Program-made: the position numbers and the translations under genes
Notes under the pieces: generated by a model
The model's input: only the letters and a program-made list of their open reading frames with translations
What the model was told of the DNA's origin: nothing
Databases searched by the model: none
Source of the DNA: Sipunculus nudus
Taxonomy: Eukaryota; Annelida; Sipuncula; Golfingiida; Sipunculidae
Direction of reading: 5' to 3'
DNA length: 64,000 nt
Assembly (NCBI GenBank): GCA_026874595.1
Contig: CM049309.1
Location: 55,789,926-55,853,925 of the forward strand
In this document: in pieces, positions 12,012 to 48,960 of the stretch
Layout of the letters: every line of letters starts with the position of its first letter
Position numbering within the stretch: the first letter of the stretch is position 1

Positions 12012-14150
12012 GAAGCGAACATTTAGATCGCTTTGATAGGAAAATAATTGCTGCGGGCTCGGTCTAATTACACGTGTGAAATACCGGCTGGCGACCCGGT
12101 TTGGAGTGTCCCTGAAACAAAGTTGACTTGTACCAAGTAATCACTAAACAATGCCAATATAACAAGTGACCGGCCATACGCGAACTCTACCCTGGTCACA
12201 TGAGGCGGACATTACCTGGGGTTGGCGGAGGCCTCTGAACTATGAAGCTCTTATCTTTTATCAGCTCATTTGTTGGTTTCATAACTGACTTTGTTCCTTG
12301 GATGGACCTGCATTGAGGTCTGTTCATAATATACCGGTACACAATATCCTTGGAAAGTGCTCACTCGATGATAATCAGAAATATTGTGTCTGTTACCTTT
12401 CAGTTAAGATAGTTTGATGAAACACCACAGGTGGCGCCAGCGTACAGGTCTCATGATTTCTTTGTCATAAATATTAAACTGGACGACACAAGCTCTCATT
12501 TCTTATATGAGTCTTTTATTAAACAAAACATTGAGTTTTATGATGTATTGCACATATATAATGAATTTGAAATCCTTCCTCATACGAAGTACCATGAGTA
12601 TATGTTACGCAGTGTAAACGTTGTATAAAATGCTTTTGTTTAAACCCGACGAAATATTATATCCTATTGTGATAACGTTGAATAGAATGGCTTTGTGAGT
12701 ACCATAAACCATATACAGACAAGTTGAATTCTTATACTGTTTACGAATTTGTAACATTGACCTGAAACTAATTCTCAAATACGCTAACAGGCAGTATATG
12801 TCACTACTCTGTTTAAATTTAGGTCTCACATTTGAATATACACAAAGAAAGAACCATGAAACAAATGACAGTGGTTGTTTATAAGAAAATCGATGTATAT
12901 TTTTGCTCTGATATGTATCATGATAGAATAATGTACATGATTACCACATAACTTGTGCGTTGCGATGAACGGACCCAAGCATTGTCATTAATAATAATTA
13001 CAGGTTTGCCGTCATGCGGATTTAAATGACACGTGGATCATTAAATGCTAAATTTATTTTTACGTCATATGCATGAATATTCAGAGATATAGGGAATGCC
13101 TGTAAGGTTATACAGAGATATTCATATTTTTTTCCACCAGGTAAATATAATATATATTCTAGACCAGACGAATCGTTATACTGACTGGCCCTAACTCTGA
13201 CCCTGCAGTGTAAGCCAGACTGTAAGTCTGGTCAAATCTGTGACCGGCCTAGATTGATTAAATCATATATCATATAAACTCATTAAAATTCCAGATTTAC
13301 TCTTTATTACTTCTGTTGACTGTGTATAGATAAAATGCACAGCTGAAAGGGAAAATGTTAAAAAGGTGTGTTTTTTTTATTGTACATGAAAACCATCAAT
13401 CAACCACAATCGAGAAGAGCGCTCGGGAGGCAGATCATTAAAAAAATGTAATGTGAAAACAGGTTTATTGTGAAGAAAAGAAAAAAAAATCTGTTTTCAT
13501 TCTGGCATTTAGTTAGAATGGCAGCCACCTTGGATTTAAATTGGCCACCATAGGAAGCATGATTTGCTTAAATCTCAGTTCATAAACATGCATATTTTAG
13601 CTCTCGGACGTTCTAGGTACTAGGTGTATGGATATAGTTTTAACCCTCATTTACAGGGCAGAGAGATGGAGTTTTTCCTATATTTGTAATTTCTCCTAGA
13701 AAAACTAAATTCATGGGGGTCTTGGGAATCGCTCCACATAGAAGTAATTATACCGGTTTCCAAATTCTACTCAAAAATTTTGCCACAAACATCAACGATT
13801 TTGTACGCCACGCTCCCTCCCTCCCTGCCCTTCTCTCTCTCTCTCTCTCTCTTTCTGTGTGTGTGTGTGTGTGTGTGTTTACGCGTAATGCGTAATTTTC
13901 AAGGCATTACGGCTCGGTATATATATATATACTGATCAAGCGCTACGTCCACTTCGGTTTGTAGGCTAAATTTGTTATCCTTGCCTACCAAAAACGAGTC
14001 GGCTCATCCACTTACTGCGACCTTCCACCTGATTTATAGCTTTAGCCTGTTATGTTTTATCATTATTAAATGGAATATTAAATGAAAAAAAAAGATAGAA
14101 AGATTATGATACACATGATAGGACGATCGGAGATAAAAAAAAAAAATAAA
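12009..14150. other. Intergenic DNA, no gene seen
   Basis: The first 300 bases (about 12009-12320) are of balanced composition and include a CTTATCTTTTATCAG double GATA-type site. This could be a regulatory island, but there is no direct evidence. The rest is AT-rich, with a (CT)n(GT)n compound repeat at 13830-13879. No exon is recognised. Confidence 0.45.
13830..13879. repeat. (CT)n(GT)n compound microsatellite
   Basis: About 11 CT units followed by about 11 GT units. Confidence 0.95.
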
Positions 14151-15219
14151 TAAGACAATTAATATTGAAACCTAATATATAAATCCTTGCTCTATCTTTC
14201 TTGTGCTTCTTTCTTTGTTTCTTCAAGCATTATGCTTATTCTTATCGCCCAAGGAAGTTTTTATATCTTTATAGATTATTTTAGTGGAGGCAGTCGCCTC
14301 CATTCTGTAAAGTGATAACTAGGATATATTGCCAAGAGTTCTTTTGGACACCTTTATATGTTGACAGGTATTACATTTTGCCAGACAATCTGGCTTTAGC
14401 AGCGCTTGCTGTTTCCTTTCGGATAGGCTGACGATTTATTTACCGAGAGCCTGTCGTTTACAACCTTTCAGGTCCGGAATTAAATTTGATTGCCACAAAA
14501 AAATGGACTTCGCAATGTAGTTGTCAGATTTGGACCCGCACCTGACAATTAAATCCCCACTACTCGGACGTGTTAAGTGTTTGAAGGGTCTGCTGAAAAA
14601 CATTCTTAATCTGAATCTCACAGAAAAAAAATAATATAAAAGCAGCCCGAGGGTCGTGCCTGTTCCTGTCAGATATACATGCAGAACAAATCAAATCAAT
14701 AAGGTCATAAATGAGTTTAATCCTATACTGACTCTATACCTGAAACCAAGTCTGGAGCGTCAAATTGTATTGATTGCCCATAAATCCCAACATAAAACCT
14801 CCGTTGAGACTGTCCACATTTGCTTGTTTAAAAATATGAGAAGAAAACTGAATGTTTAATAAAATATCCTTATCAGGATGAAGTGGACTGTAGAATTACT
14901 AGAGTGGATGTCCGGGTACCCGGGCCATGGTACCTGCATATCAACAACCAAATTATGCTCTCTCCGGTTCCGCCAACTATATCCATACACCAGGGAGTGC
15001 GAAATATATGTCGCTGACACAGGATGTATATTTTCATAATATCGAAATATGATTTTATGTTAAAAGTAAGGGGGGTTTTGTTATACTGGTGGCTTATATA
15101 TAATCTCTCCACCGGATCCATCAGGTGAAAATTATACAATCAACGTTCATGTCGCTGTGTATTCTGGATGCGTAACACGAATTTTACCGGTCTATGGTGA
15201 CCTTACAGAGTCTGTTACC

Positions 15220-18200
15220 CAGCGGCGTACCTAGCCTCATTGCCGCCCGGGGCGGTCTTAGAAATTGCCGCCCCTCTAACAAAACATTACAAACCTGGAT
15301 AACATATTAAAATATATCGTGTCAAATGTCCTTGTTACAGGCTTTTATTTGACCACAACGCAATTATATGGATTCACTGGCAGGGAATTCTTCCGCCACA
15401 TATTAAAGAGCAGAAATCTCTTTGCTAATGTACATCAAAAGATCGCTCGAAGCTCAAACAATTATATTTTATCATGAAGTAAACAGAAAGGAATAAAACG
15501 AATAAATTGTAACTATAAACAGATTAAACTGCAGGATACACATATAATGTGTGAAATTAAACTTTCATCATTCATGTAAACACGGTTCATGATTACTTTA
15601 TACTCAACTTGGGAAAAAACTTTATTTGGTGAGTGTTATTCCATTCTCAACGTATACAAATACCTTGTCACATTTATAATTCCACCTCTTGTTAACGCAT
15701 ATGACAGCAGGTACACCTAATAGAGCTATTGAGATAGGCATGGTACTGCTGCATGCAAGGCACTTTAGTCTTTCCTAAAAAAGCATAATTCATGAGTTAA
15801 GCCTATATATGTAGGCAGGGCATGTTTAATATTTTCACATAAAAAAATCCACTGTTTGGACAAACTGACTTTGTTTAATTAAAAAATCCTCCAAGTTAAA
15901 AACATACCTCAATTCAAGGCTAAATCAAAATCATTTAAGAATTATAGTGATTATGCACTTTGTGAGGTCTTATTTATGAACTTATGACTATTTGTTATTC
16001 AATAAAGTATTTAAATAAATGTCAAGTAATGATATAATTTAAATATATATTATAATTTAATTTCAAATGATTTGTCATAATATAAAACAAGTGTCTGAAG
16101 GTAGTGCTTAATTAAACTGTTAATAACAGAATTAACAGTACAGGTAAATATATCTTTAATTTAAGTTTTGAACTCTAAAAGTTAAAACTGATACTTGATA
16201 CGTATATTGGACATTGGCTAAGCGGCCAGGGGGATTCATCCCGCCGGACAGTTATAATAGAATTATATTTTAAAGTTAAATAATTCCTACATAGGCCTGG
16301 GTGTTTATTGTTTTTATTCACGTTACATAAAAGATTATGCAGGCCATATTGGTTAATCAAAAGAAACAGGCATTTATAGGTAGTACTCATTATATACACG
16401 ATGTAAACGTCTGTATTTTAACAAGACTGATGTTAGAGTATGAAGAATCGTGGAAAAAGGGCGCACCAGGTTGTTTCAGGCTGTTTAAATATCCTGGAAT
16501 TTCGGGAATTCAAGGGTTCAAGAATGAAAATTTTTTATACTTTAAAAGGAAAGAGCAACACAATTCGTCAAAATATTTTTCGCACAATGTGTATGACAGA
16601 CACCCTACCCCCCCCCCCCTACCGGGGGCCATCGGTCTTCTGGCAGGGTTTTTCCCTGGTGATTATCAGCTGCTGCTAGGGATTTCTGTAAACGACGACC
16701 GCCCTGAAATGCAGGCTTTTTGCATGATTAGTCAGTTTATCGATGGCGTTCTGACAATGCAAGATCACAGATCATAACAAAGAATAACTACAGATATGTA
16801 TTTCTTTTTTTGCGTATAGCCTGCCTCTATAGAGATCGTCCTCAAATAATTTGGTTGGTTCCACTGCCAACTGTTTAATCCCTGAAATTCTTGAAAAGGG
16901 ACAAAAAGGCCGAATTTGAACTTTTTGAGGAACTCCTTATGCCACTGATTATAATAAATCCCAGAAATGCCGCCCATAAAAAAATGTACAAAACGTTCGC
17001 TAATCATTTGGTATGTTCCATTGTCCAGTTTACAATCCCTGGAAAACTTGAACATAGGACAAAAAGGCCATATGTGTATTTTTTAGAACTCCTTATGCCA
17101 CTGATTATATTAAATCCGAGAAATGCCGCCCAAAAAAAAATGTGCAAATCGTTCGCTAATCATTTGGTAGGTTCCACTGTCCAGTTTATTATCCCTGGAA
17201 TAGTTGAACATGGGACAAAAAGGCCAAATTTGTACTTTTAGTATACTCCTTATGCCACTGATTATACTAAATCCAAGAAATGCAGCCCATAAAAAAATGT
17301 ACAAAACGTTCTCTAATCATTTGGTATGTTCCATTGTCCAGTTTATTATCCCTGGAATACTTGAACATGGGAAAAAAAGGCCAAATTTGTACTTTTAGTA
17401 TACTCCTTATGCCACTGATTATGCTAAATCCAAAAATGCCGCCCATAAAAAAAAAATGTACAAAACGTACGCTAATCATTTGGTAGGTTCCATTGTCCAG
17501 TTTATTATCCCTGGAATACTTTAACATGGGACAAAAAGGCCAAATTTGTACTTTTAGTATACTCCTTATGCCACTGATTATACTAAAGCAAGAAATGCCG
17601 CCCATAAAAAAATGTACAAAACGTTCGCTAATCATTTGGTATGTTCCATTGTCCAGTTTACAATCCCTGGAAAACTTGAACATAGGACAAAAAAGGTCAA
17701 ATTTGTACTTTTTGAGAACTCCTTATGCCACTGATTCTACTAAATCCGAGAAATGCCGCCCAAAAAAAATGTGCAAATCGTTCGCTAATCATTTGGTAGG
17801 TTCCATTGTCCGGTTTATAATCCCTGGAATACTTAAACATGAAACAAAAAGGCCAAATTTGTACTTGTTGAGAACTCCTTATGCCACTGATTATACGAAA
17901 TCCCAGAAATGCCGCCCATAAAAATGTACAAAACGTTCTCTAATCATTTAGTAGGTTCCATTGTCAAGTTTATAATCCCTGGAATACTTGAACATGGGAC
18001 AAAAAGGCCAAATTTATACATTTTGAGAACTCCTTATGCCACTGATTCTACTAAATCCGAGAAATGCCGCCCAAAAAATTTGCAAATCGTTCGCTAATCA
18101 TTTGGTAGGTTCCATTGTCCGGTTTATAATCCCTGGAATACTTGAACATGGGACAAAAAGGCCAAATTTATACATTTTGAGAACTCCTTGTGCCACTGAT

Positions 18201-18597
18201 TATACTAAATCCCAGAAATGCCGCCCAAAAAAAATGTACAAAATGTTCTCTAATCATTTGGTAGGTTCCATTGTCAAGTTTATTATCCCTGGAATACTTG
18301 AACATCGGACAAAAAGGCCAAATTTGTACATTTTGAGAACTCCTTGTGCCACTTATTAAACGAAATCCCAGAAATGCCGCCCCAAAAAAATGTACAAAGT
18401 GTTCGCTTATCATTTGGTATGTTCCATTTTCCAGTTTATAATCCCTGGAATACTTGAACATGGGATAAAAACGACAAATTTGTATTTTTTGAGGAATTCC
18501 TTGTGCCACTCATTAGACTAAATCCTCGAAATATCGCCCCCCAAAATGTCCCGCCCGGGGCGGACCGCCCCTGCCGCCCCCCTTAGGTACGCCACTG
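15220..18597. mobile_element. Non-autonomous hAT-like DNA transposon, 3.38 kb
   Basis: The left end CAGCGGCGTACCTAG and the inverse of the right end, CAGTGGCGTACCTAAG, form terminal inverted repeats of the CAGNGGCG type common in hAT elements. A perfect 8-bp direct duplication CTGTTACC flanks it at 15212-15219 and 18598-18605, the length hAT transposases make. The paralogous unit at about 24155-24175 reads ACAGAGTCTG with no insertion, so it serves as an empty-site relative. Subterminal regions are GC-rich (CCGCCCGGGGCGG at both ends). The interior has no transposase: about 15290-16860 is AT-rich filler and 16870-18520 is a minisatellite. Confidence 0.9.
16870..18520. repeat. ~155-bp minisatellite inside the hAT-like element, about 11 copies
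   Basis: Each unit includes ATGCCACTGATTATACTAAA, GAAATGCCGCCC, a poly-A run, TGTACAAAACGTTCGCTAAT and a CCCTGGAATACTTGAACAT block. The GAAATGCCGCCC landmark recurs about every 150-160 bp (near 16965, 17121, 17428, 17594, 17750, 17906, 18062, 18218 and 18373). Open frames here on both strands are periodic products of the repeat and not genes. The GCCGCCC-A(n)-TGT core resembles the element's own right subterminal sequence, from which the array may have grown. Confidence 0.9.
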
Positions 18598-19219
18598 CTG
18601 TTACCTGTGTAAGGACGTATCTGAATTGTACGTGTATTGTTGTGTGTAGCATACAGTTCCTTTCGGTTCATGTCTGGTTCATGCATATAAAGTTGAGAAT
18701 TAAGATGAAGGATTTCTTATTGCAATAAGCATCACAATATTTTTTTTAAAATTTCAAATCACAAGTTGTGTTTCTAAGGATAAAATAACCCACTTGTCAT
18801 GGCAGCTATTATGGCAATTTTGTGTCTTTACACATAAAATTGTCATTGTGAAATTGTGACTTCATTGTACAGAATTAATTTCACACAGTATTTTACTCGA
18901 ACGAAGTTTCGCTGAAAATAATTATGTGGTCTCATACACACCAAGTTGACTTTTTCCATATTTTATAGAGTGGTTTACCTTGGCGAATTATTGTGTTAAC
19001 CGTCCAAAAAAAACACAAAAAGATGCAATTTGCTGGCCGCCTACATGGTCACGTGACTTGAACTGTAATCGATTCAATCCACCATAGGTACCGTTATTTT
19101 CCATATAAGATCATCTTTGTTTATTTTTTAGCTTGTCTGCCACCTATTGTCAACACAATGATTTCTACTACAAGACGCCTCTATTTCAAATAAAAACCGT
19201 CTTAAAGAACGACATAATG

Positions 19220-19227
19220 TCACGTGA
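19220..19227. promoter_or_regulatory. TCACGTGA palindrome, array unit 1
   Basis: This is the E-box type palindrome bound by bHLH-zip factors, within GTCACGTGACTGTCCCCAGG. The block around it is retained in all six recognised units. Regulatory use is inferred only. Confidence 0.3.
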
Positions 19228-20299
19228 CTGTCCCCAGGAGAATGATACTTTCCCCCTTTTTCGGGCTATATCCTGGGACTGCTACGTGAATGTAGGTTTT
19301 CTGGCCGCCCCGGCCCCTTCGTTAATATGTTAAGCTGAGTGTGTCTCAAAACAAGGCTGTTATTGATGTGGCAGGAAATGTATTTTCATGAATTGTGTTA
19401 ATATTATCCGACAACACAGTCCAGTTTTTGGACTCCATGTGTGGTTAAATTTTCACACGAAGGTGTTTTTAAAACTTTCAATTGCTTAATCATTTCTTCT
19501 TCTAGATGAGACGGTATTCTGCTACAGTGCACAGCCAAATATTATTTTCATGCATATAATACATTTTCATTGGTCCCTTGCAGTTTCTTTGCTGAAATGA
19601 TATAATTATATGTTAGTGTTGTAAGCTTCCTGAATCCTGAACATATGACCATGCAGCACTCACATGCATTCATAAATTCATTGCATGGATGGGCAGCGGA
19701 CTGTATATTTTTATCAGTGGTTACTGTACGCTAATTTAATAATGCAAGACAAACAAAAGAAACAGAAGGGTAGAAAAGACAAAGGTATGGTATTTGTCCT
19801 CACCAAATGACTGATAACACGATATGTCGCTGTAATTCCACATATGCACTTGCATATTAATCTGAATAACTAAATACGAATAAATCTAGTATTATCACAT
19901 GATTCAATGCGATTAACATTAGATGTCGCTTGGCATTAGTCATACAGACCATTTGTATCCGTTATATTCATACCTTATCCCGTTTACCCAATTTTGCGGT
20001 TGAACGGACGGGTTCATTAATATAATGAAAATCCAGCACTGGACAGGAAATCCAGTATGTCGGCAATACCTCGTTTAAGAACATAATTGAGCAGTGTGTA
20101 AATTATGTAACGATGACATCATTAAACGTAAGCTACCGGTGCTTTATTCGGCTTTTTCAAGCCCATGCATCTCCTTTATATAATATACGTATTTGCACCA
20201 ATTGACCTGTGCATGCATGGGTGAAACAGCTTATCAATTAAACTTTTACACATAGGCTTAATCTGGGGCCTATCAAGGTTGTTTTATTGTAAACAAAAC

Positions 20300-20650
20300 T
20301 TAAATAATCTTAAAGGGGGGGGGGGTTTAAACAGAAAGATTCTATATGCTTGGATACAATTCTAAAAACTTAAGTTCAGGAATATCTATGTACAGGTCGC
20401 AAGAGGGGAGAGGTCAGGGGAGATACCGTGTATGATGTTCTGCTTTTATAACGTATACAACTGTATTGGTTTGTTTAGTTAACGCACGTTGGAAATGTAG
20501 TTTTATTATATAAATATCGCAAAGGCTTGCATTCCTTACAATGCAGATTTCTCGTTTATGATGTCATTTTTTAGGCCACTTGAAACACCTGCGATAGTAT
20601 GTTAACCTCATTGTATAATTTAGTATATGGACGGTCGTGTGTGTGTTTTT
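20300..20650. other. Unique AT-rich spacer
   Basis: Contains a short G run near 20315. No gene or repeat family is recognised. Confidence 0.4.
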
Positions 20651-20744: not shown

Positions 20745-20783
<39 letters not shown>

Positions 20784-22330: not shown

Positions 22331-23765
22331 TTTTAACGCATCACAAGCATATATTTTATTGTAAATATATCTCGAATATATACAAATGTATAAAAGACAA
22401 TTTAAGATAAAAAGAAATAAATAAGATGATTATAAGTAAAACATAATGTATTTCTTTGCTCAACTTTTCTCTTGCCTCTTCCTTTGGTTGAATTTATTTT
22501 TTTACCAATAATGTTGGTGGAAGTTGCCGTCTCCATTTTGAAAAGTGTAAACTAAGATAATATTGTCAAGGTTTTTTATGGCCTTTTTAACCTTGGGCAA
22601 GCTCTTGTTGTTTCCTTTCGGAGAGACCTACAGGTTTATTTAACCGACAGCCTGCCATTCCCAACATTTCAGATCCAGAATTAAGTCTGATGTCACAAAG
22701 GACGGCCCTCCGATGTACATCTTCTGCACCTGACAGTTACTGGATCACTGCGCAGAATGGTTAAGTGTTAGACTGCAAGGCTGAAGAACATTCATAAATG
22801 GAATGTTACAGAAGAAAACCTGGTTATGTGAAAGCAAACTCAGCATTACGTTTGTTCCTGTCAGATACACATACAGACTAAAGCATTTAGGCTTAAAATG
22901 AGATTAACCGGATACTGACTTATCCTGAAATCCAATTTGAAGCGCTTAATCAACCCTAAATCCCGATTGAATTTACAAAATTATCCTCGCTCGGGGCTTC
23001 CCTCGTCCGCGAAGCCAGATCAAATATAATAATTACGTAGTCATCATACTCACCTATTATTAACAGGCACCAATTTAAGGCAGATGCTTATCAAATGAAA
23101 CAGTTAATATATGCAGTCCTGAAGATAAAGTCATATGCGCCACGCTTTATCTGACAATACTTGAAAAACATCAAACATATAAGCATGTATAGTAAAGCAT
23201 CTTTGGCAACTGAAATTGACCAACTTACGTCATGACATCCAAACAAACTATGCTTCTAGTCGGAGCTAGAAGGCATAGGACCTTGTTTTGTGATAAATAT
23301 AACGTGTTTGTGTACTTACTATAGTATTTTAACCTCCTGATACCGAAACTGAAGGGTACAAGATGATATATCTATTCCACTTTTTCAGAAATGCTTTCAC
23401 AGACGTGAAATTTCTCTCTATCAAGTTGCAATCAGTGTACGGGATTGTGGTGTGCCCTTTGCATCTGTCTTCTCATCGTACATCCACCATCGGTGTTTCC
23501 TTTGGTTATTTAATTATTAAATAACCCCTGGTGCAGAAACAGCATCGTCAACGGCTGTAATAAGGGTGGCATTTTGAAGAGATGAAAGGCATGAAACTGC
23601 ACTAAAAAACGTTTAAATAAACCTACACAAAAAACAATCCGAATCCGTTACCGCACCCCATCCGTATACCGCATCCGTGCAACTGGACTCGTGGCTTTAG
23701 ATCTAGCTCAATCTCCCCGGTTCCGCAAATTATTCATATACCAGTGATCTAATAATATATCAATG

Positions 23766-24010
23766 CAGGGGCGGATCCTGGGTTTAGGAAAAAGAAGGGG
23801 GGGGGGGGGTGTCCAACCAAGGAGGACTATAATGACAAAACCTAAACAATTTAAGGTCCCAAGGTCCGGAAAAAGTGGTGAGGGGGGAGGGGGGGGGGAG
23901 CTTCAGGCCGTAAAAAATTGTCTGAAACCAATAAAAAAGGTTTCGGCAGCTGAAAAAGGGGCCCCGCATCTGCTTCTGCAATGGCACAGGTTTTATATTT
24001 CCTTTATATC
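23766..24010. mobile_element. Fragment of an hAT-like MITE (CAGGGGCGGATCC end)
   Basis: The terminal CAGGGGCGGATCCTGGGTTT and the inner GGTCCCAAGGTC block recur inside both arms of the 31.3-35.1 kb foldback element (about 31700-31790, and inverted at about 34560-34665). The right end is not clear, so the boundary is approximate and the class is inferred from the terminal bases. Confidence 0.5.
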
Positions 24011-24762
24011 AATGTGTTTGTAGGGGGGACATAGATAAGGAGATTTTTGCTGCGTGCTTAAATGTGATCTCTACACCATCGTCGAAATTATACATACAAC
24101 ACTCATGTCATTGTGTATTCTGGCGCGAGAAACGCTTAAATTAAGTGTCTAGGGCGACCTCACAGAGTCTGCGCCTTTATTTAGCACATCTCTAAATTAT
24201 ATTGGTAATATTGCGCGGCATACAGTTCCACTTGATATCTGATCATATATCTTACAGAACTATGCATTGTCTGTATTGTTCTCTGAATTCAAATCAAAGG
24301 ATTCATATTACAATTTGAAACACATGATGTTTGTAAGTTCTTTAAGCTGAAATTATACCCGTTCGTTACGTCAGCAATTAATGATATTAAAGTGACGTCG
24401 TTCACATATAAAAATGTTACATTGTGTGATTTGTGTCTTTATACGGCTACATTTTCACACAGTAATTTTTTTTAAAAGGACCTTCGGCTAATTTTATTAG
24501 TATTCGGTCTCAAACACTCCCTGTAGCGATCTTTCCATATTTACAGAATAGTGTTACCTTGGAGACCGATTGTGTTAACTGTCACAAAGAAAATTACAAA
24601 AAAACGTGATTTTGAATGGATTCAGCTCGCCGTGCAAACCACCGTTATAAATATTTGATATTCTTCGTTTGCTTTACAAACTTGTCTGTCACCTTGTACC
24701 GGCACAATTCTTCCATTCTCCTATCTCTCTCTAATAGAATCGTCCTAAAGAACGCCATAATA

Positions 24763-24770
24763 TCACGTGA
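24763..24770. promoter_or_regulatory. TCACGTGA palindrome, array unit 2
   Basis: The context GCCATAATATCACGTGACTG is the same as in unit 4 at 38276. See the finding on the conserved block. Confidence 0.3.
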
Positions 24771-25725
24771 CTGTCCAAATTAAGGAGGAGGATAATTTTT
24801 CCTTTTTGTTTGGGTCATGTTGCGACGGGTTGATATTCTGAAGAAGCTACAGAATTTTTTTACCGCCCCCTCGTGTGTCTTGAACCAGAGCCATTATCGA
24901 CGTGACGTTAAATCTCATTTCATCTGTCTGTACGCTGAAAAAAAATGAATTATGTAAACATTATCCGAAGAGAAAAAGTAACACTATAGGTTTGGGACCG
25001 GTAATATCCTCAGCTCAATTTGGGCCTCGCGAATGACAGACCTCCAAATGGCAGCCGCGGGGCAGTATTGTATATCAGATTGATCTAGATTTATTACCAC
25101 AAACAATCTATAATGGAACGAATCTCAGAAAAAATTTAGTCACAGCATTATCTAAGAAGTTATATGGCAAAAGGATGTTAAAATATTTGCATGGCAGCCA
25201 TATTTGATTTAACAGGAGTCAAAATTTGTAAGCACTGATCACCTCTTAGATTTCAGTGGTTTGTCAAATAATCCTAATAGAAAAATTACTGATGTGCTGG
25301 ACGGACAGACGGACCAACAAGCCAATCACTAATGGGCCCTAAAATATTAAATATGTCGAAATATTGGACGCCGTGTGTAGTTTAAACAAATTTTCTACCA
25401 CGTAGGTGTTTTTAAACGGTTCAATTGCTAAATCACTAACAATCACTTCCCAATAGACGTTATTCTGCGACAGTGAACAAGCGAACATTTATGATGCAAA
25501 TAAAATCATTTTTTTCGAATTATAGATATACCTTGCTTCCCTTCGTTACTGATATTAAATAGTTTTAACGAGAAAGATTCTATATGTGTACAATTCTAAA
25601 AACATATGATAAGTAATATACAGTGTGATTGGCCATTGAATATACCATGCTTTGCTTAAAACACAGTTGTATTAGTTTGAATTTGAAATGGAAGTTATGT
25701 AAAACGTTGCGAATATATGTTTAGT

Positions 25726-26944: not shown

Positions 26945-26990
26945 ACACACACACACATATATGTGTGTGTGTATGTGTGTGTATGTTTAT
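26945..26990. repeat. Inverted (CA)n-TATA-(TG)n simple repeat
   Basis: ACACACACACACATATATGTGTGTGTGTA is self-complementary around the central TATA. The sister copy near 40484-40503 keeps only a GT tract. Confidence 0.9.
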
Positions 26991-28108: not shown

Positions 28109-28110
<2 letters not shown>

Positions 28111-28151: not shown

Positions 28152-28153
<2 letters not shown>

Positions 28154-36740: not shown

Positions 36741-36798
<58 letters not shown>

Positions 36799-37400
36799 TA
36801 TATATATATCTGTGTGCATGTAACAATGAATGTGCGTGTGGAATCATAAAGTACACGTATTTCCTAAAACTTTCAGTAGATGCGCGCATTTCCTATAATG
36901 CACTCCGGTTTTTCATGTATTTACTTAAATAATTGATAATACGTATGTTACCACAAAAAAGGGTTTACTTCTACTTAGATTCCCTAATTTTTCTAAAGGG
37001 TCTTCTTTTAATGTTCGTAAAATGGACAGTCCAATTTGTCAACCGCCCTTATCTGAAGCATTATATATGGAAGCTCCTCTGGGATGTAATACTCTCCATG
37101 TTATTACAGGAACGGTCATCACCCAACGGTTTCATAGAACACCTCCACTGCGTTGGCGTTCAGTGGAATATTATTAATAATTCAAAAAGTCATAGAGGAT
37201 TACCCTTATAAATGTAGATATTGGGGTCATTTTCTATTTTATTTTTGTTTTCGAAAATAAAAAATATAAATTCGACTGATGGCGTGAGCCCCGATCGGCC
37301 GAGTGTCAGTCACCAGCGCAAACCCATGCTGATGAGGCAGATCGACCTTTAACACGTGACGGCTACAATGAAAAGATGACCTATTGTTTTGAACTAATTG
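35081..37400. other. Non-coding segment 5' of array unit 4
   Basis: From about 35900 it matches 44600-46190. It includes the AATTGCAATACAGCAGTATC block, the CAGGGCCCTGAAACTGACAA block (about 36408) and a (TA)n tract at 36742-36810 that is missing from the sister copy. No gene is recognised. Confidence 0.5.
36742..36810. repeat. (TA)n microsatellite
   Basis: TA units with a few CATA interruptions, after a CT tract. The sister sequence near 45655-45690 lacks the tract and about 190 bases of its flank. Confidence 0.95.
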
Positions 37401-37429
37401 AACCCGGATAACGTACAAGTTTTAAGTAT

Positions 37430-39241
37430 TTTTATATAATACTTTGGTGGAGATAAACCCGCCTCCATTTTGGGAAAAGTTAACTTATTTATCTTAATGA
37501 TTTATCGTTATAATTTACCTTAAGGCCAGTGAACCCCGACCAGACCCTGGGTTTACTACTGACACTGGTCAGGAGTCTACACTTATTTGAATTGACTCCG
37601 CGCCTGATAGGTCAACGGCAGGACACTCAGACGTACCAAGCACTTATCTGGTTGGATAGTGCCATTATATGGGGTGTCACAGAAAAACTGGGAAGGTAAA
37701 AGCAGTCTTGGAATCATATCTTCTCATCTAAACAATACATACAGAACAAACCAGCGAGGAGAACGGAGTGTAATTCAATACTGTCTTTACATTAAATCTA
37801 TAGGCTCAGGTGCCAAAATGTATATATTTGAGTGAAACCCATCAAATAAAGGGATCCTCGCTGGTAGCTCCCAGTGCTGATGAAACAGAGAAACCCCTTG
37901 GTACTTGAGAACCATATAAAACTCAACTTGATAATGAAGATATATCCCAAACACGGCTATATTTTCACACAGTAATTTTCTTAAAAGGACCTTCGGCTAA
38001 TTATATTAGTATTCGGTCTCAAACACTCCCTGTAGAGATCTTTCCATATTTACCCAATAGTGTTACCTTGAAGACCGATTGCGTTAACTGTCCCAAAGAA
38101 AATTACAAAAAAAAAAACGTGATTTTGAATGGATTCAGATCGCCGTGCAAACCACCGTTGTAAATATTTGATCATCTTTGTTTGCTTTACAAACTTTTCT
38201 GCCACCTTGTACCGGCACAATTCTTCCATTCTCCTATCTCTCTCTAATAGAATCGTCCTAAAGAACGCCATAATATCACGTGACTGTCCAAATTAAGAAG
38301 GAGGATAATTTTTCCTTTTTGTTTGGGTCATGACGCGACGGGTTGATATTCTGCAGAATTAAGCTACAGGATTTTTTTACGGCCCCTCGTGTGTCTTGAA
38401 ACAGAGCCATTATCGACGTGACGTTAAATCTCATTTCATCTGTCTGTACGCTGAAAAAAAAATGAATTATGTTAACATTATCCGAAGAGAAAAAGTAACA
38501 CTATAGGTTTGGGACCGGTAATATCTTCAGCTCAATTAGGGCCTCGCGAATGACAGACCTCCAAATGGCAGCCATATGGCAGTATTGTATATCAGATTGA
38601 TCTAGATTTATTACCACAAACAATCTAAAATGGAACAAATCTCATAAAACAATCAGTCACAGCATTATCTAAGAAGTTATATGGCAAAAGGATGTTAAAA
38701 TATTTGCATGGCAGCCATATTTGATTTAACAGGAGTCAAAATTTGTAAGCACTGATCACCTCTTAGATGTCAGTGGTTTGTCAAATAATCCTAATAGAAA
38801 ATTACTGATGTGCTGGACGGACAGACGGACCGACAAGCCAATCACTAATGGGCCCTAAAATATTAAATATGTCGAAATATTGGACGCCGTGTGTGGTTTA
38901 AACAAATTTTCTACCACGTAGGTGTTTTTAAACGGTTAAATTGCTAAATCACTAACAATCACTTCCCAATTTTCGTTATTCTGCGACAGTGAACAAGCGA
39001 ACATTTATGATGCAAATAAAATCATTTTTTTCGAATTATAGATATACCTTGCTTCCCTTCGTTACTGATATTCAATAGTTTTAACGAGAAAGATTCTATA
39101 TGTGTACAATTCTAAAAACATATGATAAGTAATATACAGTGTGCATGGCCATTGAATATACCATGCTCTGCTTAAAACACAGTTGTATTAGTTTGAATTT
39201 GAAATGGAAGTTATGTAAAACGTTGCGAATATATGTTTAGT
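37430..39241. repeat. Array unit 4
   Basis: Opens with TTTGGTGGAGATAAACCCGCCTCC (about 37442), then GGACACTCAGACGTACCAAG, ACATACAGAACAAACC and GGGATCCTCGCTGG. At about 37958 it switches abruptly to the sequence found at 24440 onward and continues through TCACGTGA (38276). The switch point is the recombination junction of the large duplication. No gene. Confidence 0.65.
38276..38283. promoter_or_regulatory. TCACGTGA palindrome, array unit 4
   Basis: Context GCCATAATATCACGTGACTG, the same as in unit 2. Confidence 0.3.
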
Positions 39242-39451
39242 GTAAATCTTGCTGGAAAAGTCGTTAGAGCGGTAGATTTGAAGGAGCTTCTTTTCGGATT
39301 TTTTTAAATCCGGCCGGAAAATTCTTTGTCAAGACCAAGGATTATCAGGCCTCCGATATATCGACATTTTCAGTCGATGTTTATCCGTCCTGAAAGTCGG
39401 TATATGTTAAAAGAGAGCCGACAAAATTAGCCGACTTTTCAGTAAGATTAC
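39242..39451. mobile_element. Second copy of the 210-bp GTAAATCTTGCTG MITE
   Basis: Sister of 25726-25935, carried along in the large duplication. Its right end has lost a base (CAGTAAGATTAC in place of CAGCAAGATTTAC). Confidence 0.65.
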
Positions 39452-41451
39452 TTCTTGCATTATTTATAGCAACCCAAAGACGAATCCATAAACTAGTGAC
39501 CAAAATCGCCGGAAAAAATATGGAGATATGTATGAATACGTAACGGTTAGATGTTCTGGCAAGCGAAAACTTCCATGTTAAATGCAGATTTTTTCCGGCT
39601 GAGAAATAATTTCAGCTTGAAAAAAATGGTAGATGGGAGACCGGCTGAAGTTATCATACTTAAAATGTATATGATTCGTCAACATCAAATTGAACTCAAT
39701 TGGAACGCCATAGAACACTTGAAAAAAAAAACTTAAATATCAGTTTAACAGAACATTAATAAACATGCACAAAGCACTAATTGGTAATGATAAAATGATG
39801 ATGGCTAACGATTTATAATACAAACATCTGTTCCTCCAGATGTCTGCAGAGAAATCCAGGGCCCTGATACTGACAATAACCCAGGCACGAACGTGTCTAT
39901 TTTACCATTCCTCCCGGTTAAGGTACATGCGTGTCAATTTCTATCGCTGTGTTCGTGATAGTATTTATAAAGCTATTGGAACCACCTGTTCGTGAGAATT
40001 TCTAAACCTCATTTTATGATCTGAAATCTAGACGTGCGTGTGTGTGTTTCAGTATAGTGGATAAAATTTGTATCGGTTCTAGAATGAATTGAGTTTGGAC
40101 CGCACAGACTGCATGTTAGCTATAAGGCCAGCCCAACGGCAATCGCTATATGGATCAAAATCATAACGGTAGTGTTAGCGTCATGTTTATCCTGTTGTCC
40201 TTTAGGATTTAAACACAGATACTTTCGCTCATCATGAATTCCAGACTTACCTTTTATTAATTATACTATACAGATTCAAAATACACAGGACTTTGAATTG
40301 GCTTCATCGGGCTGCCAATTTTTTCATCGCTGAGTCCTTTTCATCTGTGCAACACAGTTTTAATAAACAAGTAAGAAATAAGAAAAAACATTTTAAAATT
40401 TATGTAGAGGACAATATTTGTCAACATATCCTTCTGTGCCATGTTCACCGGGACACACCTGGTTCTAGCTAGGCAGAGTTACGTATGTATGTGTGTGTGT
40501 GTGTTTATTCCATGAAATTGTATGAAATAATACAGAATTGTGCACATGTATGCTAGACTCACAACTGCTTTGTATGTTGAAGAACCTATTTTCTCCATGC
40601 CACATTTAGATATAGCAACATAAATATATACATATCTACAGATGGATGACTAACACATTTTTCAAAAAAAAAAAAAGGTGCTCTTGATGTGTGATTGCGC
40701 CTCCTGCGTCCTCTTTTTTTATTGGGAAAAAACAATCAGACCTTTAAAAATCTTCTCCGAAACCGTCGAGCCAAATTTTGTAATATTTCACAGGAATGGC
40801 TCCCACAAGAGCTTTCTATGATATGTTCGCATGATTTCTGTTCGGTCATTTTTCTCCAAGTTATGGGAAGCTGAACTTAGTCATTAGGCCAAGTAAGTGT
40901 GTGAAATCATTATCTCTAGTATGGCAGGAGAAATTACCAAATTTTAGCCAAATATTGGTCACATGACTCATAGGTTTTGGTGTCGCCACTGGCGCTTCCC
41001 TATTTTTAAGTGTTAAGTGATTTTGGTAAAGATAAAGGAAGCTTAATTTTATTTAGATTTTTTACTATATTTAGATGACAATATACCCTACGTCCGTATG
41101 CCCTTTTGTTTGATCAGTGGAAGTGAAAAGTCAAATCAGTGCAATGAATCAATGCAAAGATCGATATAGTTTGGTTCATGATCCGTTCATGTTGTGGGTG
41201 GCCCATATATGTGTATTTCGGTTTCACATTGCCCCAAAACTCATCGTTTAACGCATCATCTTACATGTATGGGTAAGTAACCCGGATTGATTCAAGAACG
41301 GGGATAGGTCTGGACAAAAAGCCGATTTATCTGGCCAATTCCCGACTGTGGACATAAAGTTAACAAGTAGATAAAATATTTGAGCTTGATCCCGATAGAG
41401 ATTTGTTTCAGATCGGGATTTGGGCCTTAACACACACACACACACACACAT

Positions 41452-41494
<43 letters not shown>

Positions 41495-41650
41495 AAAGGT
41501 AAATTATCTTGCCTAGGATTCTTTTGCTGTTATTGGTTTCAGCCAGCCAACCCTAGACAGACTACTTGGGTTCAGCAAATGCAGCCCTAGTTGCCAAACT
41601 GCATATATTGGATGAAAACCCGGGCGAAATTTTATAGGAGTTTTCCCGAC
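39452..41650. other. Non-coding segment between array units 4 and 5
   Basis: Sister of about 25940-28300. It contains a (CA)n tract at 41430-41494. Just before the tract, CCCGAT and ATCGGG form a short inverted repeat (about 41391-41417) not present in the left copy. No gene is recognised. Confidence 0.5.
41430..41494. repeat. (CA)n(TA)n microsatellite
   Basis: About 26 CA units with a TGCA interruption, then a few TA units. Confidence 0.95.
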
Positions 41651-43539
41651 TGATTGCTCTCCACGCTGATCAGACCAAAACCGCGAGATAATAAAGATAT
41701 ATTGCCAAAGCTCACCTTGATAATGAAGATATGTCGCAAATACTTACCTATAATTTGGAAGAAATCGTAGAAATTTAACAAATAAACTGTTTATATGTAG
41801 TGTTGGAGATATCATAATCCACGACCCTTCATCTGACAATATTTACGAATATTAGATATACAATTGATCATCTGATTACCTGTAGGTTAAAACAGAACTG
41901 ACAAAAATAACCTAGTTTACGTTTTAAGGTTTCCAGTGGATGTTTGGGTACGATTATTGACCTGCATGCTGCAACAAAATCTTTGCCCTCACTGGCTTCT
42001 GTCGTAATCTATCTATATTCCAGAAGTCAAGGAATATACCAATGGAGCAGGCCGTTCATATCCATGATATAAAAGATATCTGTTAAACAACTATCGGCTG
42101 TTTGATTTAAATAAATCCACACTGTATGTCGTAAATTAAATGTCTGGACTATAAAGGCCGGGTAGTGATACGATCGACGATGTCATTTATAAGATAAACA
42201 GAATATGTACCAGTATCAGGATAATAAACCATCAAAATTGGAGAAATTTATATGTTGTGTGTATTATCATGGGACCCATTTGAGATCACCTGACTTGATC
42301 TTATCTGTGATAGATACAATCTGTCAGTAGTACATATTGTTCACCTTTGTTTTTTATAGCTTGTATGCAGCACAGCTAGCACAACAAGATATCTAAAAAT
42401 ATATATAAATATATATAGGTAAAATATAGACATATCAGCATCCTTGATGAAGTATCCTGCATGGGCAAGATGGAATTGTCTTCATATGACTGTAAAGTTT
42501 TTGTCATCAGGTTATCAGTGGGAGTTCGGATAAAATGATACACATGAATATCAGCAAACCCACATTTAGCAGAGACCGAAAAGTTAAACGCTGATTGTAT
42601 ACGTCCATGATTACAGGGACAACACAACCAAGGTGAGATTTGGCTGCTTGTTTAATATTAAATATAATATCTACACCGTAAGGGGAAATTTTAAATGTAA
42701 ACTGATGTTATTGTGTATTCAGGCATGAAAAATACCAAATCTACTGGTCTCAGACAGCCAGACAAAGACTGTCTGCGGTATCTGCATGGGATGTCTAGGC
42801 TTTGTATGGCCAATATTGTGCTGTATATAGTCCCAATTGGACATCTAGACATTTGGACACCTTCTTGACATTCATCCTTCATCCTATAATTATGTTCATG
42901 ATTATATCCGCGCATTTCAACGGTAAGGTTTAGTACCCTTAAGTGTTAAGCTCTTATAATAATTTGGCAAAGCTCATATGATATCAGAGGGTGGACGCCT
43001 GGGTCGAGGAGGGTTTCCCCTGGTTTTTATATGGTTTAGAATTATATATAGTTTAGCATTGGTCTACACTGCACTCGAATTCAAGTTTAAGCTGTCACAT
43101 GATGTATTTTAGATCTATTAGCTCAAAAGATTAATATCTAAGGCTGATATAACTCAGTACTCATTGTAGGTTTTATTCTATATCTTTTCACAGATCATTA
43201 AAACCCACAAAGTGATATCTTTGTCTTGTTAACACAGTATTTTTACTGAAAAAAAATTGGCTGAAAATAATTATGGTGTGTGTAATGGTCTCATCGATTC
43301 CCCGTAAAGCTCTTTCCCTTTTCAATGACATGCCGTTGCCTTGGAGACTAATCTTGTTGGCTGTCAAAAATGAAAACTAAAAAGAGCACATATGCTCACC
43401 ATTTGCATGGTCACCTACCATGGTTTGCAATACACACAATTCGCTATGCGGACCACTCTTAATAAATATTTGATCATCTGTGTTTGTTCTTCTAGCATTT
43501 CTACTTCATTTTGTCAACACAATGCTTCCCCTCTTCTGT

Positions 43540-44250
43540 ACGCTCTTTACACAGCGCTTTATCTATTGGGCTACTACTTATATCGTAAGGCGCTGTTTGT
43601 TATGACCTCGTATCCTGAATTGCAACACCAGAGGGTAGCACTGTATTTTTGTCCAATCATATGAGACTTTGTGCTGGAAGACAAAGCCAAGCGAGGAATA
43701 CACGGAGCCAATCATATTCATTTCTTTTTGAGTGACAGCTCATCCCCCAGCGTAACCGTCTGAACAGGCCACAGGCTCAGAGAGAATTGCCCCTGACGTG
43801 GTTTGCTTAGGGCCTTGGGCACATAGGATGCTCGGCCGGTGAGCTGTAATTCAAACGAAACGTAACAACAAAGGCTGCGTGCACACCTCGCTGGCTGGTT
43901 TCAGTTCTGCAGACAACAGATACATGGCTACGCTAACACAGTCATAATGTCATAATCGAATCGGTCGATGATGCGAGAATGCAGAGGGAGCAATTTAAAT
44001 TCGACCGGAAACTCATTAAGCGGCGCTTGAAGCGCAGCAATGGGCGGATCTAGGATGCCTGTCGAGTGTTTGTTTATTGGCATCTGATTGGCTGCTTGTC
44101 ACATCATACGCACGTTTATTTCAGTGGACAACGAACCGCCATCTGGTGTCTAAATATATCATAAACGGTCAAAGCTGGCAGCGTGAAAATCAGTTGCTTC
44201 TTTAGAAGCGCAAGATTTCCGCTGCCTCGGGAGCGTACTGTTCTGCTGAA
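43540..44250. other. ~0.7-kb insert with CCAAT and GC boxes, absent from sister copy
   Basis: Units 3 and 5 align before and after this stretch (CACAATG..TTCCC on the left, CTGAACGT..CTCATAACAGCGT on the right), but unit 3 has only a few bases here. The insert is less AT-rich than its surroundings. It carries two forward CCAAT boxes (43653-43657 and 43708-43712), two reverse ones (44076-44080 and 44087-44091) and GGGCGG at 44042-44047. I found no clear inverted ends and no open frame of note. It could be a captured promoter fragment or an unrecognised transposon. Confidence 0.5.
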
Positions 44251-44287
44251 CGTTACTTTCTCATAACAGCGTACTGCGATCGCCATG

Positions 44288-44295
44288 TCACGTGA
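44288..44295. promoter_or_regulatory. TCACGTGA palindrome, array unit 5
   Basis: Context GATCGCCATGTCACGTGACTG, shared with unit 3 apart from a short deletion. Confidence 0.3.
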
Positions 44296-44599
44296 CTGCC
44301 CCAGGAGGGGAATATTTTTTCCACGTGATGATAGGTTGATATGCTGCTATAGGATTGTACGTTTTCTGGTCGCCTTTTTTTTCTTCCGCTAACGTTAAAC
44401 CTTTGTGTCTCGAAACAGAGCCATCACTAGTGTGACAAATTATCATTTCATGTGCCGAAACGTTGAAGAAAATAGAAACGTGACATCATTATCTGAAGAT
44501 TAAATAATATATTTCTTGAAGCGTGGAAGAACATAATGGAACACGGCACTGTAGAATTATTTCTGACACCTTTTTTATGGGCCAAAGATTACTGAAACA

Positions 44600-46185
44600 C
44601 TCAGACATAGACTTTGTTTGGCAATTACTGAATGGGTTAATTTAATATTTGTATTCGATTATTTTCTGGCAAAAATAAAATTGCCATACAGTAGTATCTT
44701 ATGGCACAGATTTGCAATGTTATGACGATGATCAAATTGTGTAGTACATAAGTATATATGTATATATGAAATATATTGATCCAGGAGCAGAGAAATGTGT
44801 GTCAGGGTTTACCAAATCTATAGTTGCCCCACAGGTCATCTATTAAGACCCTTCGGAAGAAAGCTGGTTCCAATGATGGGATACCCGTCCATGTGCGAAG
44901 GGAAAACGCGGAAATCAATTAAGGTACATTTTTAAATTGAATGGACTGTTCCTTTGGTGTAACCCTAACCGTTTACCGAATTTCATCAAAAATATTTTTG
45001 GGTAAAATTGCTGAAAGACAAACCAAGCAACCAACAAATAGCAAAAGCATAAAGATTCTTCCGTCTGGCAGGTAAACTACATTGCTCTCCTGTGCATCAA
45101 CAATTGGTACATTATTTAAAAATGTTCACATACATAAAATTAAAAAGATTTCCACGCCTCAAATTGACCTCTATTGAAACCTCATAGACCGATCATGCGA
45201 GGTGTTTACATTGGAATATTACAAGGCTTAAATTAATCATGACAAAAATAAATACATATGAAAAACTACTGCCGTTATTGGTAATGATGAACTGGTGATG
45301 GCAGACGATTAATAATAAAAACATCTGTTCCTCCAGAAGTCGGCAGAGAAATCCAGGGCCCTGAAACTGACAATGTCCCAGGCACAAACGTGTCTATTTC
45401 AGCATTCCTCCTGTTTAAGGTACATGCGTGTCGATTTCTCCTGCTTTGTTTATGATGTTATTTATTAAGCCATTGGAAACACCTGTGTGTGAGAGTTTGT
45501 TAACCTTAGTGTATAATATGAAATGTGGATGGTCGTTTTGTGTTCCGATTTTGTCTCAGGCAAAATAGAAAGATTGTGTAGGTTTATATAGCGTGATATT
45601 CAATTTTACATCAACAAAATATCACGTTAATTCATTAGTCTCTTAGTTAAGTCTTTCTCTAATTTCCTAATTCACTTAAAATAATTGATAATACATGTAT
45701 TTCCTCAAAAAGGGTTGATTCTACTTCGATTCCCTAATTTTCGCTAAAGCGCCTTCTGTTAATGTTTGTAAAATCACCAGTCCAATTTGTCAGCCGCCAG
45801 TATTTGAAGCAACATATATGGAAGCTCCTCTTGGATGACTCTCCAATGTTAATACAGGAACGGTTATCATCCATCGGTTTCATGGAACACCTGCACTGCG
45901 TTGGCGTTCAGTGAAATTTTGTTAACAATCTAAAAAGTCATAGAGGTTTGCCGTTATAATGTAGATATGAGTGTCATTTCCTATTGTTATTTTGCTTTCG
46001 AAAATAATAAATATAAATTCGAATGATGGCGCGAGTCCCGATCGGCCGAGTGTCAGTCACCAGCGCAAACCCATGCTGATAGTCAGGTCGACCTTTAACA
46101 CGTGACGGCTACATTGAAGAGATTGAGTATTGTTTTGAACTAATTAAACCTTGATAACGTACAAGTTTAAGTATTTATATATATA
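44600..46185. other. Non-coding segment between array units 5 and 6
   Basis: Sister of about 35900-37430. It contains a ~255-bp insert at about 44830-45085. The insert ends in a TTTCATCAAAAATATTTTT..CTGAAAGACAAACCAAGCAA stretch of a dispersed repeat also seen near 55.9 and 61.5 kb. No gene. Confidence 0.5.
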
Positions 46186-48960
46186 TTACTTTGATGGAGA
46201 TAAACCCGCCTCCGTTTTGGGAAGAGTAAACCTATACATGGAGTTAATTTGATTGACTTTTACGTTATAATTACCTCAGGTCAGTCACCCCAGGCCAGAC
46301 CGGCTGGGTTCACTTAGTTTACTCTGGTGAGGTTTTCACATTATTTATGTTATTGTCTGCCACTGGTCAGGAGTCTACACTTATTTGATTTCACCCCGCC
46401 CCTGACAGGCCACCGACAGGACACTCAGACGTTCTTAGCACTTGTCTGGTTGGATAATGCCATTAAATGGGATGTCATAGAAAAACTGGGAAGGTAAAAG
46501 CAAGTCTTGGAATCATATCTTCTCATCTAAGATATACATACAGAGCAAATCAGCGAGGAGAACGGAGTGTAATTCAATACTGTCTTTACATGAAATCTAT
46601 AGGCTCAGGTGCCAAAATGTATATATTTTAGTAAAACCCATCAAATAAAGGGATCCTCGCCCAATGCTGATAAAACAGAGAAACCCCTTGGTACTTGAGA
46701 ACCCATATAAAACTCAACTTGATAATGAAGATATATCCCAAACACTCATTTATGGTATGCCGGCATCATGGTAGTAATGTAGTTGCAGAGCGCCACCGTG
46801 TGTCTGTGTAAGAGACTAGGTAGTAATGTATCAAATAAAACATTCATGTTTAGTATTGCAGATACCATTAGGCAAAATCCTCTGACGGATAATATTGGAA
46901 GAAAATGATATAAATAAGCATCTTTGAATATCTTTGCCCGTAAAGGTTCGTTCACGTCATCAGGTTATCAGTGGATGTCTTGATAAGATTACACACACAC
47001 ACACACTGACACACACATATATAGTTGTGTAAAATAAATGAACTCTCCGCTGCGATTTAAATGAACACACGCAATATGACATAAAATGTAATAGCTGCGC
47101 CATTAAAGGAAGTGATGCAACCGACGATCATGTCACTGATATGATACACCATTCTCGAGCAGCTGTTTTCCTCATCTGGGATGTCTGTGTATTGCATTGG
47201 AAATATGACTTGGAATACAATTCCTATTAATATATTACTAAATGAATTTTAGAATTATGAAGGACATGTTGTTGGTACTGTCCTCTGAATTAAGGTACCC
47301 ATATTACAAGAAATGATGATTTTTAGATCTATGGCCCTGAAATAATCAAATAGTCATGTAGTGGTTTTTCCCTCTAAACATTATAACTTTAACACCTTTT
47401 CTCAGATTAACTTTCACACTGTAACTACTTTGTCCTGGCGTACCTTCGCAACCGTTATCTAAACGCTTGGTTTAAAAAAGAATGCATTAAACAGTCTAAT
47501 GCACTTCATGTAAAGTTCTTTCAAGTATGACGGGATATGGTTACCTTAGTAACTGGTTGAATGAAAGGCCCCAAAGGAAAGCACAAAAAACGGAGCAATT
47601 TACTTGCCATTTGCATAGTCACATGATTCTAATTGATACATATCGCTATGCAAACCGTCATTGTTAATATTTGATAAACTTTGTTTTTTCAGCTTCTCTG
47701 TCACCAGTTTCCAGCATAATGCTTTTTATCTTGGCTTTTAACAGTCGCTTTCTCATAACATTGTACTAAAACCAACTCTATACAACAAGTCACGTGACTG
47801 ATCCCAGGAGGAGGAGGATTGGTCCGCATCCTCTTGGGCTGATGTAAGCTGGTGCTTAAACAAGATAATGGAATTTCTGTATGTCTCTGTTGACATGTTA
47901 AGATGTTTGTATCTGGAAACAGGAACACCGGCTTGTTTCACAGGAAATATAATTTTATCTGCTTGAAGTTAATGGAATCGTGTCAACATTAAACGTGTTA
48001 GGAAAAACGTAGGTATTACTGGAAACGCCAAATCTTCGGATCCTCTGTGTAGCTGTCACATATTTTCTAACACAGCTAAACAATGATAATGCAATTAAAA
48101 TGATATATTCAACAAAACTTTCTAGAAACCTAGGAAATAAGTCCCTATCACAAAAAGATGTAATGTAAACATTTTATGACAAGGAGGTAGAGCCGTAAGC
48201 ATCCTAAATACACATTCGTGACAATGTGATAATGAACATACACACACCCCTCATTGGCAAGATGTTATGCCAAAAACATTTCGTGCAGGGACAGTACCCT
48301 TGACCTATGGCTACAATCCGATTATTAACGATGTCAGAGAAACAAAATAACCAGAATAAGAAATCAATATAGAGCAATAATACGAAAATTGTTTATTCCC
48401 AAAGTATTAAAGGGAAATTATTGAGTCTTTACAGTAATTCTACATTATAATGTAGCATATTTATTTCAATAATTCAATAGATATAAATCCGGTATTATTT
48501 CGCTAATAAGCGGGATTTCCATTGATATTTGGCCGTTAACAATAGAGATATCATGCATAACAGTCAGGCTTGACTCCGTTTGCCTCACAGTTTTGCCGTT
48601 GCTAGGACACGTTCATTATACCACAATGAATGTCCAACACAAGACAGGAAATGCGGTCGAGTCAGTCGGCAATAGCCCGTTTAAATGTTTCCTGAATACT
48701 TAGAAATTATGCCGACTTTAAAATTGTTATGTGCGATAGCGAGGAACATAACTGAGTGCTGTATAAAATATGTACTGATGACATCACTAAACGCCAGCTG
48801 TTTAAAACAGCTTGTTCTGATTATCTGATGAATATGATTACCATCATAAATTCCTATTAACAAGCATGACTTAATGTGTTTGAGCTCAAAATACTCACTT
48901 TTCCATGATAATTTAACATATACATCTTGAAAAACGAAAATATTATTTCTTTGAAAAACT
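46185..48960. repeat. Array unit 6
   Basis: Opens with TTTGATGGAGATAAACCCGCCTCC (about 46190), then GGACACTCAGACGTTC, ACATACAGAGCAAATC and GGGATCCTCGC. After the right boundary of the large duplication (about 46745) it continues with CATCAGGTTATCAGTGG (about 46959), TCACGTGA (47790), GTCGGCAATAGCCCG (about 48667) and ACATAACTGAGTGC (about 48747). It ends with TTCCATGATAATTTAACAT, which resembles the left flank of the foldback element. No gene. Confidence 0.65.
47790..47797. promoter_or_regulatory. TCACGTGA palindrome, array unit 6
   Basis: Context ACAAGTCACGTGACTGATCCCAGGAGGAGG. This is the most diverged unit, yet the core is intact. Confidence 0.3.

Follow-up and report, generated by a model that had tools for sequence, protein, structure and literature searches.

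Six diverged, apparently non-coding tandem units between a forkhead gene and a nicotinic receptor gene share an 11-bp site that may be a retained regulatory element

The interval between a forkhead gene and a nicotinic acetylcholine receptor gene was analyzed in a 64-kb stretch of DNA (the window, C4:55789926-55853925) of a 1.43-Gb genome, whose source appears to be an animal, going by these flanking genes. We found that the interval contains six direct, colinear units, termed A to F, and that one 11-bp sequence, TCACGTGACTG, which includes the palindromic E-box CACGTG, is identical in all of them. This identity suggests, short of proof, that the site is what natural selection kept. Judging from the sequence, we put the chances at about even that the array, a set of non-coding tandem duplicates at one locus (so-called local repeats), multiplies one cis-regulatory E-box element kept by selection. 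Of the readings offered by the original prediction, an amplified regulatory or non-coding RNA locus fits best, and it is narrowed here to a single conserved 11-bp E-box site per unit.

The six direct, colinear units were confirmed by self-comparison. After removal of pairs within two tandem-repeat tracts (16.8-18.6 kb and 32.0-32.8 kb), comparison of the region from 12.5 to 50.5 kb with itself yielded 70 matches, of which 68 are direct and two inverted; two of the direct matches represent a local repeat at 20.65-21.12 kb. When the stretch from 14 to 49 kb was treated as a 35-kb sample and pairs less than 2.5 kb apart were ignored, 66 direct matches and one inverted match were counted, compared to direct/inverted counts of 12/3, 9/4, 1/8, 10/4, 1/0, and 4/2 in six control stretches of 35 kb. 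Four of these controls were taken from the neighbourhood and two at C4:20.0 Mb, and they overlap in pairs. The 4/2 control, which lies 36 Mb away, carries a large direct duplication of its own (four matches, 7.0 kb), indicating that a single duplication is not unusual in this genome, while many old colinear pieces are. The tandem array of same-orientation units, for which a dot-plot had been proposed as a check, is thereby upheld, and the unit starts given at about 14.2, 22.3, 28.2, 37.4, 41.7, and 46.2 kb agree well with those measured (about 14.1, 22.4, 28.2, 37.5, 41.5, and 46.3 kb). The array spans 14.1-48.8 kb (about 34.7 kb). It had been described as filling the whole interval between the two genes; measured from the forkhead start codon at about 5.49 kb to the first receptor exon found at 57.97 kb, it covers about 66% of 52.5 kb. 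What the array has in common with the surrounding 129 kb (18 rows of matches) is limited to simple repeats, one dispersed repeat, and a handful of weak matches of short length.

Each unit contains a subset of the same modules in the same order: two successive head blocks, one block marked by CATCAGG..GTGG and another by GTGTATTCTGG, the core that carries the E-box, further blocks past the core, and finally an end block. The shared order and orientation of blocks thus stand as predicted, but the strings quoted for them proved less general: ACATACAGAACAAA was found in four of six units (up to two mismatches), GTGTATTCTGG likewise in four (up to one mismatch), and CATCAGGTTATCAGTGG in three (up to three mismatches), while GCCTCC, with seven plus-strand and two minus-strand matches in the array, is too short for specificity. 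Identity between the old lineages ranges from 0.53 to 0.77 per module, compared to 0.32-0.51 for shuffled sequences, where the control consisted of one alignment per module and the modules had been picked from the self-matches. In the core, the four old lineages (A, B, C, and F) are 0.57-0.63 identical, i.e. they differ by about 40%, in agreement with the divergence of units noted earlier. The old lineages resemble one another more closely in the end block (0.66-0.77) than in the core (about 0.6). A giant satellite, another of the readings offered, is a poor fit to six copies with a spacing of 3.5-8.1 kb, a core difference of about 40%, and inserted elements.

Against this background of divergence, a count over 164 kb, of which 159 kb are readable, finds TCACGTGACTG exactly six times, with one copy in each unit and all copies on the plus strand; the E-boxes are spaced 3.5-8.1 kb apart. 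A six-way alignment of the core has 410 ungapped columns, and 129 of them are invariant; TCACGTGACTG is the longest invariant run, with 11 columns, and the next longest comprises four. Shuffling of the columns in 20,000 trials produced a run of 11 in 0.055% of cases (p 0.00055). When only the four old lineages are considered, a uniform-rate star model assigns a probability of 0.002 to a run of 11, the next longest runs being five. The total number of invariant core columns in these lineages (142 of 415) is close to the 139 expected under this model, which means that there is no general excess of conserved core columns. Overall, the core looks close to unconstrained save for one sharp footprint.

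The agreement between 142 observed and 139 expected columns also fits a neutral history, in which functionless intergenic DNA would have undergone tandem segmental duplication and the E-box would be a chance run in a decaying alignment. In line with this explanation, a minisatellite, dispersed repeats, and inserted DNA disrupt the units, the distant control stretch also carries a large direct duplication, and the test for constraint is weak. It accounts less well for the 11-bp run, given the probabilities of 0.002 and 0.00055, and for the coincidence of this run with a known palindromic factor site rather than with an arbitrary string. We regard neutral duplication as a serious possibility, though hardly a probable one.

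Several points weigh directly against a selected element. The star model was fitted to the pairwise identities of the same data, so that it tests evenness of rates and not neutrality. Invariant runs were examined in the core alone, which was chosen as the best-aligned module, and the p-values are uncorrected for this choice. Beyond the 11 bp, the core gives no clear sign of constraint: in the young pairs (B-D and C-E), changes affect 30 of 354 sites where the other lineages agree and 59 of 471 sites elsewhere (pooled p 0.040), a weak result that splits into p 0.40 for B-D and p 0.040 for C-E, or 0.36 and 0.051 with A and F alone as reference. The CpG ratio of the core stretches speaks for an element in five of the six units, with 0.91-1.27 (for E, 44250-44470 only) compared to 0.82 for the array, but against it in unit F, where it is low (0.55).

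The footprint can be compared with a described binding site. GTCACGTGAC is present exactly at the footprint in four of six units (A, C, E, and F), while B and D carry ATCACGTGAC, with one mismatch; a second GTCACGTGAC lies in unit A at 19048. A passage of the review PMC8301958 presents GTCACGTGAC as the CLEAR box, bound by MITF/TFEB-family factors. The resemblance is thus an exact 10-mer in four of six units, whereas the invariant TCACGTGACTG extends two bases (TG) beyond it on one side, and factor binding at this locus is putative. USF- or Max-type factors bind the same E-box core. Based on these similarities, TCACGTGACTG would be a putative binding site for a basic helix-loop-helix (bHLH)-leucine-zipper factor of the USF, Max, or MITF/TFEB family. 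According to the explanation that we favour, an ancestral segment would have carried one E-box-type cis-regulatory element, duplication would have multiplied it to one copy per unit, and selection would have preserved the E-box while the remainder of the unit decayed. The forkhead gene lies on the minus strand and the receptor gene on the plus strand, and the array is therefore on the 5' side of both. The element might conceivably act as an enhancer or promoter on one or both of them. A more specific version, a homotypic E-box cluster formed by segmental duplication, in which six kilobase-spaced copies of one CLEAR-type site would have been under selection over a time in which the surrounding unit core lost about 40% identity, and would exert shared control of the forkhead and nicotinic receptor genes, with copy number setting the output, is tentative and in our view doubtful.

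By analogy, the nearest described kind of sequence seems to be the local repeat of the Firre type. Such repeats are characterized in part of PMC4820808 as restricted to a single locus, with non-repeated sequence between them, and the same part states that the Firre repeat R0 can act as an enhancer and holds motifs for several transcription factors. The units described here similarly lie within one locus and are interrupted by other sequence. In contrast, the Firre repeats are part of a locus for a long non-coding RNA, and both CTCF and YY1 bind to R0 (PMC4820808, in the same part), while the present array carries an E-box and is without a full CTCF core motif. Motif scans for CTCF, the RFX X-box, YY1, FOX, and CRE were run with consensus strings; the full CTCF core motif, CCASYAGRKGGC, had no match in the array, while a short form of it matched at three places there. 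Within the DNA analyzed, an X-box-like string was found only in the four core modules of B, C, E, and F (24553, 29924, 43335, and 47540) and is not relied on; on the minus strand, this string also resembles a splice donor. Macrosatellites such as DXZ4 and D4Z4 provide a second comparison. According to sections of PMC3491370, PMC6985041, and PMC2639723, DXZ4 is a tandem repeat that is large and homogenous and to which CTCF binds. As far as these sections describe macrosatellites, the array shares with them head-to-tail units of kilobase size at one locus, but differs in that it has six units, in that the old lineages are 0.53-0.77 identical rather than homogenous, and in that the full CTCF motif is absent.

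The history of the array includes one younger step, for which the coordinates are given in Table 1. One tandem duplication of about 13.5 kb raised the unit count to six, and the units also differ by insertions and deletions. The two young copies show a gap-free identity of 0.88-0.94 in six pieces, in accordance with the earlier proposal that a dimer-plus segment had been copied on top of the older units. At the junction (37953/37954), position 46745 in F is joined to position 24443 in B with 2-bp microhomology. Since these partners are at non-homologous places of their units, the younger step looks like a microhomology-type event and not like unequal crossing-over between units; as a consequence of the junction, unit D is chimeric, with an F-type head and a B-type tail. 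Such a young step is commonplace for tandem segmental duplication through microhomology, and with its 13.5-kb segment copy, 2-bp junction, and non-homologous unit positions the present case shows no difference from it. Divergence between B and D is 1-7% over 24443-25942, 10-17% over 25943-26692, and 5-8% beyond. The jump near 25943 could reflect homogenization of the first part by gene conversion.

Table 1. Coordinates of the array, its modules, and its flanking genes (positions within the window).
Feature	Position	Strand	Evidence
Invariant TCACGTGACTG, unit A	19220..19230	+	
Invariant TCACGTGACTG, unit B	24763..24773	+	
Invariant TCACGTGACTG, unit C	30162..30172	+	
Invariant TCACGTGACTG, unit D	38276..38286	+	
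Invariant TCACGTGACTG, unit E	44288..44298	+	
Invariant TCACGTGACTG, unit F	47790..47800	+	
Unit A, old lineage 1, with 156-bp minisatellite	14100..20650	+	Self-matches
Unit B, old lineage 2, with two dispersed repeats	22400..26640	+	Self-matches; genome search
Unit C, old lineage 3, with an interruption (30490-35920) that has no counterpart in E	28200..36620	+	Self-matches
Unit D, chimera, lineage-F head to 37953/4, tail copied from lineage B	37500..40150	+	Self-matches; junction
Unit E, young copy of unit C, with extra DNA inside its core	41500..45668	+	Self-matches
Unit F, old lineage 4, end block unmatched	46300..48800	+	Self-matches
Core module, unit A	18612..19400	+	
Core module, unit B	24183..24950	+	
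Core module, unit C	29600..30352	+	
Core module, unit D	37953..38466	+	
Core module, unit E	~43123..43560 plus 44270..44470	+	
Core module, unit F	47184..47975	+	
End-block module, unit A	20530..20648	+	
End-block module, unit B	26146..26528	+	
End-block module, unit C	36183..36598	+	
End-block module, unit D	39650..40050	+	
End-block module, unit E	45124..45544	+	
Source of younger tandem duplication, ~13.5 kb	24443..37954	+	Self-matches
Younger tandem copy, without the 30.49-35.92 kb stretch	37953..46745	+	
Forkhead open reading frame (stop to stop), left flank	4186..5502	-	PF00250, E 1.1e-31; PDB forkhead chains
Nicotinic acetylcholine receptor exon, right flank	57973..58182	+	PF02931, E 0.0014, under the family's curated cut-off; PDB nicotinic receptor subunits, best E 5.8e-06

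Individual units have acquired additional sequences. The minisatellite of unit A (16845-18539) comprises about 11 copies of 156 bp and also shows a 313-bp period. Within the interrupted part of unit C, an inverted repeat at 31272-35080 has arms of about 0.85 kb (31272-32105 and 34198-35080) that are 77% alike, with a 66-bp tandem repeat between them; this structure, which is absent from E, resembles an element bounded by long terminal inverted repeats. In unit E, about 0.7 kb of extra DNA (~43560-44240) splits the core about 50 bp before the E-box, and the E-box is kept.

The absence of a conserved frame, as stated by the original prediction, is in agreement with our alignments, in which the aligned segments show no coding trace. 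The 15 pairwise alignments contain 323 gaps, of which 77 have a length divisible by three, fewer than one third. The nine old-lineage pairs contain few windows of at least 22 codons that are open in both copies (none in five pairs, one or two in three, and at least four in B-E), and the lowest ratio of non-synonymous to synonymous differences (pN/pS) among them is 0.52. Values below 0.3 were obtained for 17 of the 116 windows that yielded a ratio, overlapping and on both strands, all of them in young pairs, where substitutions are few. Six-frame Pfam scans of units B and E gave no family at the curated cut-off and three weak matches (E 0.023-0.091). A decayed tandem gene family is therefore not supported by the pieces tested, i.e. 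the aligned segments and, for Pfam, units B and E. We also considered small frames on the minus strand and, in the end block, a stretch resembling an exon, but dropped them since the frames are broken in other units. None of 4227 Rfam families reached its gathering score over the window, and the 23 sub-threshold matches in the array fall mostly on simple repeats. A structured RNA in the core found no support (consensus fold of -13.3 kcal/mol over 908 columns, covariation term of +1.7, both-sided change in 10 of 53 predicted pairs). CpG depletion as a sign of transcription was likewise uninformative, with 0.82 for the array and 0.72-0.90 for neighbouring stretches.

Transcription of the minus strand offers a different explanation for the shared modules. 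The units would then be tandem transcription units, either long non-coding RNAs or very decayed genes, with the core as shared promoter and first exon, the E-box as promoter site, and the other modules as later exons. Consistent with this, units A, B, D, and F carry a splice-donor-like AAG|GTAA on the minus strand about 210-250 bp past the E-box, and the corresponding sequence of C and E is AAG|GCAA (inserted DNA widens the gap in E). Further donor- or acceptor-like sites occur in the head and GTGTATTCTGG modules of some units, but they are lost in others, and the donor-like site can equally be read as an RFX X-box-like site. Given in addition the lack of a conserved frame, of Pfam families at the cut-off in B and E, and of Rfam families at threshold, we consider this explanation unlikely.

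We also compared the array with the rest of the genome, where a dispersed transposon inserted independently and in the same orientation would be expected to leave traces. All four matches of a 351-bp piece of the unit A core lie within the array (the piece itself, B, C, and D). This search recovered three of the five other known copies and missed E and F, so that equally diverged copies elsewhere, about 60% alike, could escape, and a lack of matches in such a search does not establish rarity; this limit, too, counts against our favoured explanation. For unit B, 41 matches were listed (40 of 1699 candidates were scored), and all 36 of the listed matches outside the array fall on only two short parts of the unit (23762-23965 and 24968-25298), which identifies both as dispersed repeats. 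The remaining listed matches are unit B itself, D, the end blocks of C and E, and a short inverted match inside B. The repeat at 24968-25298 sits in the stretch that was carried into D by the young duplication. The genome search proposed as a check on a transposon origin thus found the A core only in the array, with the incomplete recovery of known copies and the two dispersed repeats in B as qualifications. Independent insertions are disfavoured by these matches and by the single module order and orientation across the units, and we hold them to be very unlikely. A phage collection had no match for 22300-24200.

The surroundings of the array contain further genes and repeats. To the right of the 57.97-kb exon, more frames that we take to be receptor-like extend as far as about 86 kb. 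To the left of the window, frames at about 25-31 kb (L007/L008) presumably belong to an ectonucleotide pyrophosphatase gene, which they resemble, and a frame at about 19 kb (L006) resembles what we assume to be a retroelement reverse transcriptase. Within the window, a 137-bp tandem repeat (three copies, 97%) lies at 11547-11952 and a 49-bp tandem repeat at the window edge (1-426).

If the regulatory explanation is true, the same site is present in six copies of known relative age, each embedded in decaying DNA, which would constitute a natural experiment and show directly how small the unit of selection within a duplicated control region can be. If it is wrong, the array would still provide a clear case of a large non-coding tandem duplication that grows, once via a microhomology junction, and then dissolves.

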